This document shows, piece after piece, positions 29,656 through 36,543 of a stretch of DNA of 64,000 nt. Made by a program: the position numbers and the translations under genes. The notes beneath the pieces were generated by a model, which made no database searches, was not told where the DNA came from, and worked only from the letters and a program-made list of their open reading frames with translations. Source of the DNA: an uncultured Tidjanibacter sp. Its GTDB lineage: Bacteria; Bacteroidota; Bacteroidia; Bacteroidales; Rikenellaceae. Location of the stretch: NCBI GenBank assembly GCA_947852905.1, contig CANTVF010000006.1, positions 1-64,000 of the forward strand, given 5' to 3'. The number at the start of each line of letters is the position of its first letter. The stretch's first letter is position 1.

Positions 29656-29700
29656 ACCATAAAAACAGACAACTGCCTGCGGAAAATCCGCAGGCAGTTG
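29656..29700 (-). terminator. Terminator of the pyr operon
   Basis: 14-bp perfect stem (CAACTGCCTGCGGA with its complement, 29670-29683 and 29687-29700) and a 3-nt loop, followed on the minus strand by TCTGTTTTTATGG. It is 26 bp after the pyrB stop. Confidence 0.92.
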
Positions 29701-29726
29701 CAAACATCACTTATTCAGTCCAGTCG

Positions 29727-30812
29727 TTATTTCTTTATCAGCGTCTCGCAATAAGCGCAGCGATACACGCCCTTCTCGCCCTCTACGGGACGCATGATCT
29801 GGGGCACGTTTTCCGATGCGGATATACAACGCTTGTTGGGGCATTTGATGCCTTCCGGATCGTAAACGGCGCCGGCCAGCTGCGGATTTTCCATCTGTTT
29901 GTCCTTCCATTCGAAGAGTTTGCAGATCAAAGCCATACGCATGAACTTACCATTCTCTACCTGACGGAAGTAAGCTGCACGCGGATCCTTGTCCACCTCT
30001 ACGGCAATCTCGTTCACACGGGGCAGCGGGTGCAGTACGGCCATATCCTTCTTGGCGAGCTTCATCTTCTCGGCATCGAGGATATAGGTATCCTTCAGCG
30101 CCTCGTAAACGGCCTGATCGTCGAAACGCTCCCTCTGGACGCGCGTCATGTAGAGTATATCGAGCTGCGGCATCACGCTTTCCATATCCCTCACCTCGGT
30201 GTACTCTATACCTGCGTCGTGCAACTCTTCGAGTACGTGTTCGGGCATCTTGAGCTCGTCCGGCGAAATCATGACGAACTTGATGCCTTCGTAACGCATC
30301 ATGGCTTTGGTGAGCGAATGTACGGTACGGCCGAATTTGAGGTCGCCGCACATACCTATCACGAGATTGTCCAGACGTCCCATTTCGCGCTTGATGGTCA
30401 ACAGGTCGGCCAGAGTCTGCGTCGGGTGGCAGTGCGAGCCGTCGCCGCCGTTGATGATCGGTATATCGGTCACGCGCGAGGCTACCAGCGGAGCGCCGTC
30501 TTTCGGATGACGCATGGCGATAATGTTGCAGAACTTGTTTATCGTCATGATAGTGTCGGCGAGAGATTCGCCTTTCGTTACCGAAGAAGTACTTGCATCA
30601 GAGAAACCGAGCACATTGCCGCCGAGTTCGAGCATTGCCGCTTCGAAGCTCAGACGTGTACGGGTACTGGGTTCGTAAAAGAGCGTCGCAAGAGTCTTGT
30701 TCTTGCATTTTTCGGTGTAAGCCGGACGGTTGTCGATAATGTCGAGAGCGAGATCTATGATCTGCTGCAATTCCTGCATACTGAGGTCGGTGATGTCAAT
30801 AAGATGATGCAT
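29727..30812 (-). CDS. pyrB: Aspartate carbamoyltransferase with C-terminal PyrI-like zinc domain
   Basis: 361 residues. The first ~305 are the catalytic chain, condensing carbamoyl phosphate and aspartate: [20 protein letters not shown] (carbamoyl-phosphate loop), [24 protein letters not shown] and [11 protein letters not shown]. It then continues into KCPNKRC near 323-329 and YRCAYCE near 350-356, giving Cys324, 329, 352 and 355 in a C-x4-C-x22-C-x2-C pattern. That is the zinc-binding half of the regulatory chain PyrI (E. coli C-x4-C-x23-C-x2-C). The nucleotide-binding half of PyrI is absent. Last gene of the pyr run, 207 bp after pyrE. Confidence 0.95.
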
Positions 30813-31019: not shown

Positions 31020-31736
31020 CTATCTGCCCGCGCCGATCCACGACTCGTCGCGCGGGTTGGCGCGGAAAGCCATGAGACGGTCTATGTCTTCGCTGTGTAT
31101 GTACCCCTCCTCGGCAGCCACCTTCACGAGCGTATCGAAATTAGAAAGACTGTGGTTGGATACATGGGCATCGCGCAAATGGTCTAGACCGGTCTGCATG
31201 CCGTATGTGAATATGCTCGCAACGCCGAGCACTTCGGCACCGGCCGCACGCAAAACCTTGACGACCTCTATGCAGCTGTCACCCGTAGAGATGAGGTCCT
31301 CTATAACGACCACCTTTTGTCCCGGTTCGAGACGTCCCTCGATCTGGTTGGTGCGACCGTGATCCTTGGCGCTGCCGCGCACATACCCCATAGGCATGTC
31401 GAGGATAGAAGCCGTTATGGCCGCATGAGCTATGCCGGCCGTACTCGTACCCATCAGCACTTCGCACTCCGGATACAACTCCTTAACAACCCGCGCGAGA
31501 CCGTTCTCTATGTCGTCCCTTACACGCGGCGCTGTCAACGTAAGGCGGTTATCGCAATAAATTGGGCTCTTGATGCCGCTCGCCCATGTGAAAGGCTGCT
31601 CCGGACGGAGGAATACCGCCCCTATCGACAGCAGGTCTTTCGCTATAATCCTTTCGAGCGCCTCGAGGCTCTCCGCCGCAGACGCGCATGCGCAACGGCA
31701 TGTTCCGTTTTCTTTATCAGTCTGGTTCACTTCCAA
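31020..31736 (-). CDS. pyrE: Orotate phosphoribosyltransferase
   Basis: 238 residues, slightly long because of a ~28-residue N-terminal extension with three cysteines (GTCRCACASAAES). It forms OMP from orotate and PRPP. Motifs are FTWASGIKSPIYCDNR, VLMGTSTAGIAHAA and the PRPP loop QKVVVIEDLISTGDSCIEVV. It lies between pyrF and pyrB. The extension may be dispensable; a later start within it lacks an ATG at a family-like position. Confidence 0.94.
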   Translation of the reverse strand: MEVNQTDKENGTCRCACASAAESLEALERIIAKDLLSIGAVFLRPEQPFTWASGIKSPIYCDNRLTLTAPRVRDDIENGLARVVKELYPECEVLMGTSTAGIAHAAITASILDMPMGYVRGSAKDHGRTNQIEGRLEPGQKVVVIEDLISTGDSCIEVVKVLRAAGAEVLGVASIFTYGMQTGLDHLRDAHVSNHSLSNFDTLVKVAAEEGYIHSEDIDRLMAFRANPRDESWIGAGR

Positions 31737-31858: not shown

Positions 31859-32560
31859 CTATCTGCCGAGAAATTCGCTCATGCAACGGCGGTATGCCGC
31901 TACAGGATCCGGCGCCTCGGTAATCGGACGGCCTACCACTATGTAGTCGGTACCTATCTCCGCGGCACGCGCCGGAGTGGTTATCCTGACCTGATCGCCC
32001 TTGTCGCCGTCGGCGAACCTGACACCCGGCGTCACCGTCATGAAGCCGCTGCCGCACGCCGCTTTCACCATGCCTGCCTCCAGCGGGGAACATACCACGC
32101 CGTCGAGACCTGCCTCACGGGTATTCTCGGCATACCTGACTATCGTATCGTTGATAGGGGCGTTTATAAGCAGTTCCCTCTGCATGCGCTCCTCGCTGGT
32201 GGAAGTAAGCTGCGTCACGGCTATCAGCAGAGGACGCGTGCCGTCAGGACGTGTAAGTCCTTCCAACGCAGCGCGCATCATGTCGATAGTGCCGGCTGCA
32301 TGTACGTTCGTCATATCCACATCGAGGTTGCGCAACACGGACATGGCTTTTTTCACCGTGTTGGGTATGTCGTGCAGTTTGAGGTCGAGAAATATCTTAT
32401 GCCCACGGCGTTTGATCTCCCTCACGATAGAGGGGCCTTCCGCATAAAACAGTTCCATTCCTATCTTGAGGAAAGGTTTCTCCTCGGTAAAGCGGTCGAG
32501 AAACCTGAAAGTATCCTCCGCGCTCGAAAAGTCGCACGCAATGATTACATCTTTAGCCAT
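31859..32560 (-). CDS. pyrF: Orotidine 5'-phosphate decarboxylase
   Basis: 233 residues, the short (E. coli-type) form. It decarboxylates OMP to UMP. Motifs are MAKDVIIACDFSSAEDTF, FLKIGMELFYAEGP and the catalytic HKIFLDLKLHDIPNTV (DxKxxD). C-terminal VTPGVRFADGDKGDQVR and YIVVGRPITEAPDP close the phosphate site. It is 62 bp after pyrD and 122 bp before pyrE. Confidence 0.95.
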   Translation of the reverse strand: MAKDVIIACDFSSAEDTFRFLDRFTEEKPFLKIGMELFYAEGPSIVREIKRRGHKIFLDLKLHDIPNTVKKAMSVLRNLDVDMTNVHAAGTIDMMRAALEGLTRPDGTRPLLIAVTQLTSTSEERMQRELLINAPINDTIVRYAENTREAGLDGVVCSPLEAGMVKAACGSGFMTVTPGVRFADGDKGDQVRITTPARAAEIGTDYIVVGRPITEAPDPVAAYRRCMSEFLGR

Positions 32561-32622: not shown

Positions 32623-33570
32623 TTAATTCCTTGCTATTCCTATTATGTCTCGCAGGCGCGTTATGCCGAGACGCTCCATCTCCTGAGGCAAAGCCTCGAT
32701 AATCTCCTTGCAGGCATAGGGATTACGCAGATTCATGGCACCGACCTGCACCGCCGTCGCACCGGCCATCATCATCTCGATAACGTCTCTCGCGGACGAC
32801 ACGCCCCCGCAGCCCATGACGGGAATACCGCACGCACCAGCCACCTGATATACCATCCTCAACGCCACCGGGAATATCGCCGGACCCGAAAAACCGCCCA
32901 TGGTATTCGCAATGACCGGTTTGCGCGTGCGCAGGTCTATTCTCATGCCGAGCATCGTATTGATAAGAGTTATGCCGTCGGCACCCGCCTCCTCGCATGC
33001 GCGGGCTATCGAGACTATGTCGGTAACGTTAGGGCTCAGTTTCATGTATACCGGTTTCGTCGTGACGGCCTTGACCGCCTTGGTCACTTCGTAGGCGCTT
33101 TCCGGCCGGGTACCGAAACTCATGCCACCGTGCTTCACGTTGGGACAACTGACATTGACCTCTATGATCCCCACCTGAGGCTCGCTGTCTATCCTGCCGC
33201 AACACTCGACATATTCCTCGACCGAGAAACCGCTTATATTGGCGATGACCGGCTTGCGGAACACCTTGGCCATACGGGGCAGCTCCTGCGAAACGACGGC
33301 GTCTATGCCGGGATTCTGCAACCCCACGGCATTTATCATCCCTTCGGTACACTCCGCGATACGCGGCGTCGGATTGCCGAAACGCGGCTCTTTGGTGGTT
33401 CCCTTGAAGGAAAAGGAGCCGAGTATGTTTATATCGTAAAATTCCGCGAACTCCGCTCCGAAACCGAAGGTACCGCTAGCCGGTATAACCGGATTATCGA
33501 GCCTCAATCCGCTGAGTTCCACCGAGAGGTCTGTCTCGCGCGCGGTCGTATTTACGTTTTCAGTCTGCAT
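32623..33570 (-). CDS. pyrD: Dihydroorotate dehydrogenase, catalytic subunit (class 1B)
   Basis: 315 residues. It oxidises dihydroorotate to orotate with FMN. Motifs are NPVIPASGTFGFGAEF, IEVNVSCPNVKHGGMSFG (active-site Cys of class 1), YMKLSPNVTDIVSIA and GFSGPAIFPVALRMVYQVA. Class 1B enzymes pass electrons through PyrK to NAD+, and pyrK is the immediately preceding gene (4-bp gap), which supports 1B. Confidence 0.95.
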   Translation of the reverse strand: MQTENVNTTARETDLSVELSGLRLDNPVIPASGTFGFGAEFAEFYDINILGSFSFKGTTKEPRFGNPTPRIAECTEGMINAVGLQNPGIDAVVSQELPRMAKVFRKPVIANISGFSVEEYVECCGRIDSEPQVGIIEVNVSCPNVKHGGMSFGTRPESAYEVTKAVKAVTTKPVYMKLSPNVTDIVSIARACEEAGADGITLINTMLGMRIDLRTRKPVIANTMGGFSGPAIFPVALRMVYQVAGACGIPVMGCGGVSSARDVIEMMMAGATAVQVGAMNLRNPYACKEIIEALPQEMERLGITRLRDIIGIARN

Positions 33571-33574
33571 ATCC

Positions 33575-34339
33575 CTATTCCCAGATTATTTCGTCGGTAC
33601 GAAGTACCGGCCCTTCCTTGCAAATGCGTTTATTACCGTTCTTGGTCTTGCAGCTGCATCCCATGCAACCGCCGAACCCGCACCCCATGCGCTCCTCGAA
33701 ACTGAATTGTCCCGGTACGTTCACCGCACCGCCGAGCGCCCTTAGCATGGGCATCGGTCCGCAGGCATACACGTAATCGTATTCGGGTACCGACTTCAGC
33801 GCATCGGTAACGAATCCCTTCACTCCGCGCGAGCCGTCCGCGGTAGCCACCGTAACCGTCGCTCCGAGAGCAGCGAACTCGTCAGCATAGAATACTTCGG
33901 AAGCGGTATTGAAACCGAGTACCACATTCACCGCGGCACCGCCGGCGATCAGCCGTTTGGCAAGGTTGTATAGCGGAGGTACACCTACGCCACCGCCCAC
34001 GAGCAAAGGACGGCGCGTCCCGGTAGCGGTATCGAATCCGTTACCGAGCCCGGTCAACACGTCGAGTTCCCCTCCGGGCTTCATTTCGCCCATAATGGCG
34101 GTACCCTCTCCCACCACCTTATATATTATAGTAATCGTCCGCCCGTCGTAATCGCATATCGAAATGGGACGACGCAAGAATTTTCCGGGCAATTCCACGT
34201 TCACGAACTGTCCCGGAGCCGTTATATACTGCGTATCGCCTTCGAGCACCATTCTGTAGACGTTACCCGTCAGTGCTTCGTTGGCGACTATCCTGTATAT
34301 GCCGCGTTTATACATATTCCGTTCCGTATAGTTTTCCAT
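33575..34339 (-). CDS. pyrK: Dihydroorotate dehydrogenase, electron-transfer subunit
   Basis: 254 residues, a ferredoxin-reductase-like flavoprotein with a 2Fe-2S site. FAD site: RRPISICDYDGRTITIIYKV. NAD site: LLVGGGVGVPPLYNLAKRL. The C-terminal cluster motif C-x4-C-x2-C-x11-C is visible in MGCGFGGCMGCSCKTKNG and the Cys of KRICKEG. It partners PyrD, with a 4-bp gap. A start at MYKRGIYR, 8 residues in, is also plausible. Confidence 0.93.
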   Translation of the reverse strand: MENYTERNMYKRGIYRIVANEALTGNVYRMVLEGDTQYITAPGQFVNVELPGKFLRRPISICDYDGRTITIIYKVVGEGTAIMGEMKPGGELDVLTGLGNGFDTATGTRRPLLVGGGVGVPPLYNLAKRLIAGGAAVNVVLGFNTASEVFYADEFAALGATVTVATADGSRGVKGFVTDALKSVPEYDYVYACGPMPMLRALGGAVNVPGQFSFEERMGCGFGGCMGCSCKTKNGNKRICKEGPVLRTDEIIWE

Positions 34340-34366: not shown

Positions 34367-35638
34367 TCATGCCTGCTGCGCGTAACGGTACGCCTCACGG
34401 CCGTCCACGAGTGTCAACACGTTGCGTCCCTGCACCGTCCACCCGTCGAACGGGGTCGCACGCCCCATAGACAGAAAATCCGAAGAATCTATCTCGTATC
34501 TCGGATTCAGATCGAGTACGGCGATGTCGGCCGGAGCGCCGATCCTTATTTCTCCGCCGAGCCCGAAAAGCCGTCCCGGCAACACGCTCATGACCTCGAC
34601 GAGCCTTTCGAGCGTTATTATTCCGCTGCGCACCATATATTCGTACATCACCGGAAAAGCGGTTTCGAGTCCCACGATGCCGAACGCGCTACCCTGAAGC
34701 CCGCGCGATTTCTCCTCGGCAGAATGGGGTGCGTGATCCGTAGCGAGGACGTCTATCGTCCCGTCCTGTATACCGCGCCGCAACGCATCGCGGTCTTCGG
34801 CACTGCGGATCGGCGGATTCATCTTGAAACGCCCCTCCTCCTTCAGATCCATATCCGTAAGTACGAGATAATGCGGTGCTGTCTCGCAGCTCACCCTCAA
34901 CCCCTCGGCCTTGGCCCTGCGCACGAGTTCGACACTCTCCTTGGTGGATACATGGCACACATGATACTGGCAACCGGTGCGGCGGGCCAACTCGATGTCC
35001 CGTTCCACCTGACGCCACTCGCTCTCGGAGCATATTCCCTTGTGACCGTGCAGACGCGCGTATTCGCCGTCGTGGATGTATCCGCCGCGCAGCAGTTCGT
35101 TCACTTCGCAATGGGCTACGATAGGTTTGCCGAGCGAAGCCGCCTTGCGCATGGCTTCCTCCATGACCGCATCGGCCTGCACGCCGCGACCGTCGTCCGA
35201 AAATCCCGCCACACGACCGCTCATCTCCTCCATGCGGGAAAGTTCTCCGCCGCCTTTCTGCCCCATGGTAATGGTCCCGTAAGGCACCACCTTCATTACG
35301 GCCTGCGCCTTTATCATATCGAGCTGAACGCCGAGATGCTCCGCAGTATCGGGAGCCGGCACGAGATTGGGCATCGGACATACCGTCGTATATCCGCCTC
35401 GCGCAGCCGCACGGCTGCCGCTGCCTATAGTCTCCTTATACGAGAATCCCGGCTCGCGGAAATGTACATGGACATCTATGAAACCGGGCACCACATACAT
35501 TCCGGACACATCCTCTACCTCGGCATCGGCGGCATCCACCGCACCGACAGCGGCTATCAGCCCGTCCTCGATCAAAATATCCTCTATCGAAAATTTTCCG
35601 TCGCGGTATACATTGCCGCCTCTGAGCACCTTTTTCAT
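34367..35638 (-). CDS. pyrC: Dihydroorotase
   Basis: 423 residues, class I amidohydrolase fold. It cyclises carbamoyl aspartate to dihydroorotate. Metal site: VVPGFIDVHVHFREPGF (HxH). Others: GGYTTVCPMPNLVPAPDT, PIVAHCEVNELL, YHVCHVSTKESVELV and VLATDHAPHSAEEKSRG (late Asp). First structural gene of the run pyrC-K-D-F-E-B. A terminator and a short leader ORF lie just upstream. Confidence 0.95.
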   Translation of the reverse strand: MKKVLRGGNVYRDGKFSIEDILIEDGLIAAVGAVDAADAEVEDVSGMYVVPGFIDVHVHFREPGFSYKETIGSGSRAAARGGYTTVCPMPNLVPAPDTAEHLGVQLDMIKAQAVMKVVPYGTITMGQKGGGELSRMEEMSGRVAGFSDDGRGVQADAVMEEAMRKAASLGKPIVAHCEVNELLRGGYIHDGEYARLHGHKGICSESEWRQVERDIELARRTGCQYHVCHVSTKESVELVRRAKAEGLRVSCETAPHYLVLTDMDLKEEGRFKMNPPIRSAEDRDALRRGIQDGTIDVLATDHAPHSAEEKSRGLQGSAFGIVGLETAFPVMYEYMVRSGIITLERLVEVMSVLPGRLFGLGGEIRIGAPADIAVLDLNPRYEIDSSDFLSMGRATPFDGWTVQGRNVLTLVDGREAYRYAQQA

Positions 35639-35689: not shown

Positions 35690-35719
35690 CAAAAAAGGCA
35701 ACCGGTAACCGATTGCCTT
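35690..35719 (-). terminator. Intrinsic terminator in the pyr leader (putative attenuator)
   Basis: Hairpin 35695-35719: AAGGCAATCGGT pairs with ACCGGTTGCCTT on the minus strand, 11 of 12 bp paired, followed directly by TTTTTTG. It lies between a strong promoter (35853-35884) and pyrC (start 35638), and its first two bases are part of the stop codon of the leader ORF. About 55 nt separate it from pyrC. Confidence 0.82.
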
Positions 35720-35825
35720 AAAAATCAATATCTGTTTCGACAATGAAAAAACGGAGGATGTTGTCCTTTGAAAAATAACGTCCGTTAACGTACTCCATGA
35801 CCGATATTCTCCCCTTTTTCCTCAT
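35718..35825 (-). CDS. Putative pyr operon leader peptide (35 aa)
   Basis: A short ORF, ATG at 35825 and TAA at 35720-35718, 28 bp downstream of the promoter -7 box. The peptide begins MRKKGRISVMEYVNGRY and ends FFIVETDIDF. Its last codons are U-rich in the mRNA (CGU UUU UUC AUU, then GAU UUU UAA), and the stop codon overlaps the 5' arm of a terminator. The known parallel is E. coli pyrL, whose translation close behind RNA polymerase at low UTP blocks the pyrBI attenuator. I infer the same logic here; the peptide itself has no recognisable domain. Confidence 0.6.
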   Translation of the reverse strand: MRKKGRISVMEYVNGRYFSKDNILRFFIVETDIDF

Positions 35826-35852
35826 CGCGTTTTCAATTCGCTTAAATTGGTG

Positions 35853-35884
35853 CAAAGTTACGATTTTTTTACAAAAACGCCAAA
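35853..35884 (-). promoter_or_regulatory. pyrCp: Promoter of the pyr operon
   Basis: On the minus strand, TTTG (35884-35881), 20 bp, TAACTTTG (35860-35853), exact consensus and spacing. The transcript would start near 35849, giving a leader of about 210 nt before pyrC. Confidence 0.75.
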
Positions 35885-36092
35885 CGAGAACAGAAAAAAT
35901 CGGATGATTTTTTCTGCCATAAACACTCTGTTGCCGCGGAATAAGGCCATAGCACATATATGATATAGCGCTACTGTCGTAAAGGGTATAGCAACTCAGC
36001 GACAACATTAAACAACCGACACACATGAAAGTTACGGGAAAGACATACATCCGGTACGGAAACCGCTTACGGAACTGAAAACGGATCAGATA

Positions 36093-36543
36093 AAAAATAT
36101 CCGGCAACGAACTCGTGACAATACACCACATACAAAGAACATCGGTCAGGGAACTCGTCGCTAAACCTATCGTCTATATAATGCCCAAAATGAAATATGT
36201 AGACAAGAAAGACCCTTTCTACGAAAATTTCATACCGGCGAGCTACGAATGCATGGATGAATCGGAATTACCGGTCGACGATCTTATCGTAAAGGCGGCG
36301 ACAACCGCACGCATCAGATACATATTTTTGCGGTAAACAACGTCAGCGACATCTCAAGCCACCTCGCCGCAAGAGACTATCTGCGCGCGCCCTCAAACGG
36401 CGTCACGCTACGGCCGACTAAAAAACGAAATCTACAGTACGTCCCGTCGGACATAGAAAGCTATTGCGACGGCAAGGACAAATTTATGAAAGCTCTCGAA
36501 GCGGCTGCACTGAAAAGGTACGGACAACGGTACCTCCATTAAC
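36093..36543 (+). pseudogene. GrpB/UPF0157-family pseudogene
   Basis: Two frames together give a GrpB-type protein. Frame 1 (to about 36262): ELVTIHHIQRTSVRELVAKP matches the family core IHHIGSTSVPGLAAKPIIDI. Frame 2 (from about 36263): GITGRRSYRKGGDNRTHQIH, then SHLAARDYLRA and SDIESYCDGKDKFMKALE, matching GRRFFRKGGDNRTHHVHIF and the FRDYLR and DIEAYIDGK parts. A single-base loss near 36262 explains the shift. The GSTSVPG motif is ruined (QRTSVRE), a TAA and another shift occur at about 36090, and no N-terminus is readable. GrpB proteins resemble nucleotidyltransferases; function here is lost. Confidence 0.85.

Follow-up and report, generated by a model that had tools for sequence, protein, structure and literature searches.

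A probable UTP-sensitive attenuator with a ribosome-gated terminator ahead of a pyrC-first pyrimidine operon in Tidjanibacter and related Bacteroidales

Attenuation that senses UTP by means of a translating ribosome is a textbook case in enteric bacteria, where it is regarded as a hallmark of tight transcription-translation coupling. Ribosomes repress terminators located close behind a stop codon, an effect described as graded, sequence-dependent and gone beyond about 27-30 nt (PMC4824070). In E. coli MG1655, the frameshifted rph stops at -37 from the pyrE hairpin, and low PyrE together with a pyrimidine defect is reported for this strain (PMC2784333). Seven out of eleven lactate-evolved lines carried a deletion that shifted the rph stop to just past the attenuator loop; according to the authors, expression data from two such deletion lines did not confirm higher pyrE (PMC2784333). 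Within Bacteroidota, Bacteroides thetaiotaomicron is described as having short ORFs upstream of genes that are 'reminiscent of leader peptides' (PMC7366714), and clues to leader peptides of amino-acid operons are given for a flavobacterium (PMC9723704). Among the matches listed in our literature search, which left subscription journals mostly uncovered, no report of UTP-sensitive or pyr attenuation in Bacteroidota was recognised, nor any paper testing or showing transcription-translation coupling in this phylum. A counterpart conserved in Bacteroidota would provide a selected, naturally occurring reporter of coupling in one of the major phyla of the gut.

The window analysed here is a stretch of 64,000 nt from an uncultured Tidjanibacter sp. 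(contig CANTVF010000006.1, positions 1 to 64,000). On its minus strand, a short leader ORF and an intrinsic terminator precede six pyrimidine genes, and in our judgement this arrangement is probably a UTP-sensitive attenuator working by transcription-translation coupling ahead of pyrC-K-D-F-E-B. The features are as follows.

35881..35884, minus strand: -33 element TTTG of a Bacteroidota-type promoter, read from the sequence, 20 nt from the -7 box
35853..35860, minus strand: -7 element TAACTTTG, read from the sequence
35718..35825, minus strand: leader ORF of 35 codons plus stop TAA (35720-35718), with counterparts in the 22 other same-genus genomes searched
35720..35751, minus strand: U-rich stretch at the end of the leader ORF (TTTTTTCATTGTCG...GATTTTT), where a UTP-sensitive pause is proposed
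35691..35719, minus strand: intrinsic terminator (stem 35719-35695, T run 35696-35691), which alone appears in the consensus folds and shows compensatory changes in each of the four clades
34367..35638, minus strand: pyrC, dihydroorotase, first structural gene
33575..34339, minus strand: pyrK, dihydroorotate dehydrogenase electron transfer subunit
32623..33570, minus strand: pyrD, dihydroorotate dehydrogenase
31859..32560, minus strand: pyrF, OMP decarboxylase
31020..31736, minus strand: pyrE, orotate phosphoribosyltransferase, start codon uncertain
29727..30812, minus strand: pyrB with a C-terminal fusion to a PyrI zinc-binding domain
29669..29701, minus strand: strong terminator (15 pairs) directly 3' of pyrB, presumed operon end

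The TTTG at 35884-35881 is taken by us to be the Bacteroidota -33 element. A TAnnTTTG consensus for the -7 box is named in PMC9723704. A promoter pattern search of the window's own genome proved too unspecific, with 551 forward and 1178 reverse matches, the reversed pattern giving 704 and 545. The leader ORF starts with an ATG at 35825, 27 nt past the promoter box, and encodes the peptide MRKKGRISVMEYVNGRYFSKDNILRFFIVETDIDF. The final 30 nt of the U-rich tract read TTTTCATTGTCGAAACAGATATTGATTTTT. The terminator stem AAGGCAATCGG/TTA/CCGGTTGCCTT pairs at 11 positions, one of them G-U (-15.4 kcal/mol), and is followed by a run of 6 T; two bases of the leader stop are common with the stem, which places the stop at -1. 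The start of pyrC at 35638 lies 56 nt past the hairpin. Promoter, ORF, hairpin and stop overlap, the short gap between promoter and ORF (given as within 28 bp) and the six-gene operon behind the terminator had all been named in a preliminary description of this DNA, and each was found again in its place.

The leader frame of the window is also open through the promoter, as 137 codons (35718-36131, minus strand) for which no Pfam match was found. This openness upstream of the promoter is probably due to chance, and ORF openness alone is therefore no proof in the window.

PyrC was searched in 23 same-genus genomes, the window's own included, and in 150 genomes of the family. Upstream regions were read in 23/23 same-genus genomes and in 55 of the 58 sister-genus (g22) genomes with a PyrC match above 50% identity, that is, all but G082, G125 and G134. 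The 79 tabulated leaders comprise those of the 23/23 same-genus genomes, 54 out of the 55 sister-genus loci, and two named Bacteroidales MAGs (L124, L131). Two leaders (L043 and L077; GTG start) were set manually, as were six hairpins with bulges or a wrong pick (L010, L012, L013, L023, L031, L037); the pyrC start of L031 was mis-set by a contig end, and its 320-nt spacer is an artefact. Additional named loci from Bacillota and others were judged by eye and kept out of the counts.

The comparison of the ORF end in relatives, which the preliminary description had proposed as a check, showed that the leader ORF reaches the hairpin in 79/79 tabulated leaders: in 73 the stop is positioned between -10 and +12 relative to the first base of the stem, and in the other 6 it lies beyond the terminator. 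The stop-hairpin overlap itself, present in the window, is strict in 51 of the 79, with the stop just before the hairpin in 22 and after it in 6; as a strict rule it was dropped in favour of an ORF that reaches the hairpin. The conserved rule is that the ORF never ends more than 10 nt before the hairpin in the 79 leaders (12 nt in L140, outside this set). A TAnnTTTG box 5' of the leader ORF was detected by script in 78/79 loci and, in the form TACCTTTG, by eye in the remaining one (L043). The leader peptides are highly variable and 26-78 codons long, with 26-45 codons or fewer in 73/79, and the distance from ATG to hairpin has a median of 104 nt among 44 representatives.

Outside the 79 tabulated leaders stand L036, L085-L092, L135, L139 and L140. 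The stop is at -10 in L139 and at -12 in L140, and neither leader has a promoter match. Eight family members (L085-L092) possess another PyrC type (about 33% identity), and no leader was seen by eye in the 260 nt upstream. L036 (G147) is the only one of the 55 sister-genus loci with this pyrC type and no leader seen, which speaks against the attenuator reading; short repeats are present in the region upstream of its pyrC. In the Bacteroidales MAG locus L135 (1468-1580), the promoter-proximal ORF runs in frame into an N-terminally shortened PyrC, a strong inverted repeat lies within the coding sequence, and no leader can be separated. Perhaps the leader is fused into pyrC in this locus, or the assembly is at fault.

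In the proposed mechanism, RNA polymerase would start shortly 5' of the 35-codon leader ORF and a ribosome would begin its translation. With plentiful UTP, the polymerase would pass the U-rich tract fast, the ribosome would lag behind, the terminator would fold, and transcription would stop before pyrC. With scarce UTP, the polymerase would slow down in the U-rich tract right before the hairpin and the ribosome would catch up. Since the leader ORF reaches or enters the hairpin, the ribosome would then cover the 5' arm, the hairpin could not fold, and the whole pyrC-K-D-F-E-B operon would be transcribed. We infer translation of the leader ORF in the cell and blocking of the terminator by the ribosome. 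The mechanism predicts that a whole operon would be controlled by where one very small ORF stops and by its start codon.

The nucleotide composition before the hairpin was compared on the transcript strand in 72 representatives at 90% identity and in 44 representatives of less than 65% nucleotide identity, the latter chosen greedily; clustering at 60% identity had chained unrelated leaders. In the 72 representatives, T rises from 0.21-0.23 at 60-100 nt before the hairpin to 0.50-0.57 in the last 20 nt (0.52-0.53 in the 44 representatives). No rise matching that of T was found for A, which amounts to 0.17-0.24 in the last 20 nt and 0.24-0.26 in the last 10, and C falls to 0.06-0.08 in the last 10 nt. 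Thirty other terminators, 18 from the window and 12 from 45 of the loci, served as the control set. These have T at 0.28-0.30 in the last 20 nt and A at 0.36 in the last 10, with no T rise. A count of 8 or more T within these 20 nt was reached by 40/44 leaders and 6/30 other terminators (Mann-Whitney p=5e-10), so that the U runs at the leader end, likewise put forward for comparison in relatives, proved to be a shared trait.

The U-rich tract could slow the polymerase for reasons besides UTP sensing. The attenuator might thus be coupled to translation while responding to the general ratio of transcription and translation speeds (growth rate, ppGpp, antibiotic stress), to CTP or to another NTP, since the geometry alone does not distinguish the signal and the tract could be a generic pause. 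However, T is raised specifically while C declines and A shows no such increase, the other terminators of these genomes lack the T rise, and the downstream genes are all for pyrimidine synthesis; we therefore regard a signal other than UTP as unlikely. The preliminary description had proposed a UTP-sensing attenuator of the pyrL type. A translation-dependent attenuator is strongly supported by the comparison of 79 loci and the pyrBI geometry is not retained, while we infer UTP as the signal from the U-rich tract and the nature of the operon.

An amino-acid-sensing attenuator of the trp/his type, in which stalling at regulatory codons switches between antiterminator and terminator, would likewise have a terminator and a leader ORF in front of biosynthetic genes. 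In addition, Asn is over-represented 4.2x and Gln 2.8x in the leaders relative to PyrC, and the flavobacterial leader-peptide clues mentioned above concern amino-acid operons. Against this reading, no amino acid is common to all 44 representative leaders, each one missing from at least one of them, and the longest single-residue run is 5 (Arg, in one leader) and otherwise at most 3. Consensus folds were calculated with RNAalifold for four clades of 24, 25, 13 and 8 leaders, which cover 70 of the 72 representatives. The terminator is the sole structure in all four clades; it is paired in 86-97% of cells, and each clade has 4-6 pairs in which both sides changed. Consequently, neither a conserved aptamer nor an antiterminator was seen in these 70 leaders. 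Moreover, a gap of more than 20 bp separates leader gene and terminator in the amino-acid attenuators of E. coli (PMC4824070), but the stop codons here are found at the hairpin itself. Codon sensing was rejected for its lack of a universal amino acid and of an antiterminator, and we consider it very improbable.

A riboswitch or an attenuator governed by an RNA-binding protein such as PyrR, with the ORF being incidental, would fit the presence of PyrR leaders ahead of related pyrC genes in some Bacillota. The window leader, taken alone, also folds better than shuffled sequences (z -2.65). Nonetheless, no Rfam family reached gathering in the window leader (the only match was a tRNA elsewhere), and the terminator is all that is conserved in the folds. 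With one PyrR model, PyrR was above the cut-off in 0/23 same-genus genomes and in 6/14 control genomes; the model matched weakly in 18/23 genomes, with at most 28 bits where the cut-off is 138, as it would match a general phosphoribosyltransferase. This reading, which also leaves the constraint on the ORF unexplained, was rejected and is extremely improbable.

The ribosome-gated reading was further compared with chance expectation. With the 230 nt upstream shuffled, the combination of promoter, hairpin-reaching ORF and terminator was expected in 0.7 of the 44 representatives and found in 43. With the promoter kept and the rest shuffled, 43/43 qualify and 10.4 were expected. ORFs open to -12 were found in 44/44 representatives (15.9 expected from dinucleotide shuffles), a result favoured by the choice of most ORFs as the first with at least 20 codons; when only the very first ATG after the promoter is considered, 41/44 still pass. 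On the other side, frame +1 is open in 24/44 representatives, above the shuffle mean of 15.9, and thus part of the ORF openness is due to composition. The pooled in-frame dN/dS is 0.51 (18 non-overlapping leader pairs), and pN/pS is 0.57 in frame and 1.02 and 0.84 out of frame (13 equal-length pairs), which amounts to a weak codon constraint on the leader ORF. The word ACATA/ATATC occurs about 16-18 nt after the ATG (12/44 and 10/44 against 2.6 and 1.8 expected), for example in L059, L066 and L040, and several peptides contain ...NISP.

No TAnnTTTG box was found between terminator and pyrC in any of the 44 representatives, and pyrC therefore presumably depends on readthrough. That the ORF arose by chance, or belongs to a small-protein gene ended by a terminator of its own and unrelated to pyrC control, was rejected and is barely credible: the open frame 5' of the promoter in the window and the poor conservation of the peptide would agree with it, but the hairpin is reached in every tabulated leader, the shuffle with the promoter kept gives far fewer qualifying leaders than observed, no TAnnTTTG box precedes pyrC behind the terminator in the 44 representatives, and a small protein would be expected to be better conserved than its dN/dS and highly variable sequence indicate.

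In a tree of 52 PyrC proteins, whose root is a drawing aid, the 18 rows from the window's family cluster with Bacillota (support 100/97). They are followed by five Bacteroidales MAGs, and a long way from them is the usual PyrC of Bacteroidales, with about 30-38% identity. A PyrR leader above the gathering score is present near a related Bacillota pyrC in one of nine loci scanned (L129), and PyrR leaders below that score were found in three of seven (L125, L130, L126). A ZTP riboswitch lies beside pyrC in a Clostridia MAG (L130:1013-1095, minus strand). The pattern suggests, as the simplest story, that PyrR control may have given way to a ribosome-gated leader on a transferred gene. Operons with related enzymes would then be controlled by PyrR in some Bacillota and by a ribosome race in Bacteroidota, which opens the evolution of the sensor to study.

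Leader-like ORFs with a terminator were also found before pyrB in other Bacteroidales families, in 6 of 108 loci (L213, L228, L230, L268, L290, L324) obtained from 117 other genomes with a match. Among the pyrB loci with both promoter and terminator, 6/10 qualify (2.2 expected). Like E. coli pyrL, the 53-codon ORF of L228 passes right through the hairpin. In the other families pyrB mostly lies behind another gene, and the leader-like elements ahead of pyrB are therefore only suggestive. For most PyrB matches from these families the alignment ends by about residue 300 of the query, which corresponds to the catalytic part. In 28 pyrD loci of other families, an ORF reaches an upstream terminator in three (L236, L238, L248), and none of these has a TAnnTTTG box in range. 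As pyrD leaders all three were rejected: L236 and L238 resemble the usual A-rich end of one gene that precedes another, the latter presumably pyrK, and the hairpin of L248 lies far upstream.

The attenuator seems to have evolved separately from that of E. coli. We put forward, tentatively and with more doubt than confidence, that ribosome-gated UTP-sensing attenuation may have had more than one origin in Bacteroidota, each separate from that in enterobacteria, at pyrC here, replacing PyrR on a horizontally acquired Bacillota-type gene, and at pyrB in other Bacteroidales families. If multiple independent origins were true, this would point to tight transcription-translation coupling in Bacteroidota.

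Concerning the pathway, the small-chain domain and the large-chain oligomerisation domain of carbamoyl-phosphate synthase had no match in the window's genome (G000, 99.94% complete), in which the remaining pyr pathway is present. The large-chain domain was likewise not found in its near relatives G001-G003, G020 and G022, but was found in 10/23 genomes of the genus, in several of them within a few kb of pyrC. The lack of a match to the carbamoyl-phosphate synthase domains tested implies an unusual supply to the pyrimidine pathway in the window's genome, a point that counts against the attenuator reading. This genome also encodes a SusD-like protein, as expected of Bacteroidota; among 14 control genomes, this protein was found only in the one Bacteroides.

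With regard to the known classes, riboswitches are defined by a conserved aptamer, and none was found in these leaders by Rfam search or consensus folds. The Bacillus-type PyrR attenuator (RF00515) likewise controls pyr operons and precedes related pyrC genes in some Bacillota; unlike there, the leaders described here showed no PyrR RNA structure, and none of the 23 same-genus genomes has PyrR above the cut-off. Amino-acid leader-peptide attenuators share the short ORF and the terminator, but here no regulatory codons or antiterminator were found and the stop lies at the terminator.

Similar to E. coli pyrBI, the locus combines a dedicated short leader ORF (44 codons in pyrL) with an intrinsic terminator that has a U-rich stretch before it and pyrimidine genes downstream, and the distance from ATG to hairpin in pyrL, 88 nt, can be set against the median of the 44 representatives given above. 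However, the preliminary description had equated the two arrangements exactly, and this cannot be upheld. E. coli pyrL runs through the terminator, with its stop at +44, 24 nt beyond the hairpin, whereas 73/79 leaders stop at the hairpin and only 6/79, the window leader not among them, run through. In addition, pyrC comes first here, in an operon of six genes with a Bacteroidota-type promoter and in a different phylum.

The stop at the hairpin is instead the geometry of E. coli rph-pyrE, where the intact rph stops at -8 from the hairpin and a U run lies directly before it; the likeness extends to the letters (GATTTTTAAGGCAATCGG in the window, GATTTTTAAGGCGACTG in E. coli) and is presumably convergent. 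In rph-pyrE the stop is within about 10 nt of the hairpin, in agreement with the positions recorded here, and by analogy leaders with a stop at most 10 nt before the hairpin would be on the short side of the range in which ribosomes repress terminators. E. coli pyrE appears to follow the same rule, namely that the ORF must reach the hairpin, as suggested by the intact rph and by the distant stop and low PyrE of MG1655. Unlike in the window, with its 35-codon leader, the upstream ORF of rph-pyrE is a full gene (RNase PH). A dedicated leader peptide like that of pyrL and a geometry like that of pyrE are thus known, and what appears new here is the phylum and the operon starting with pyrC.
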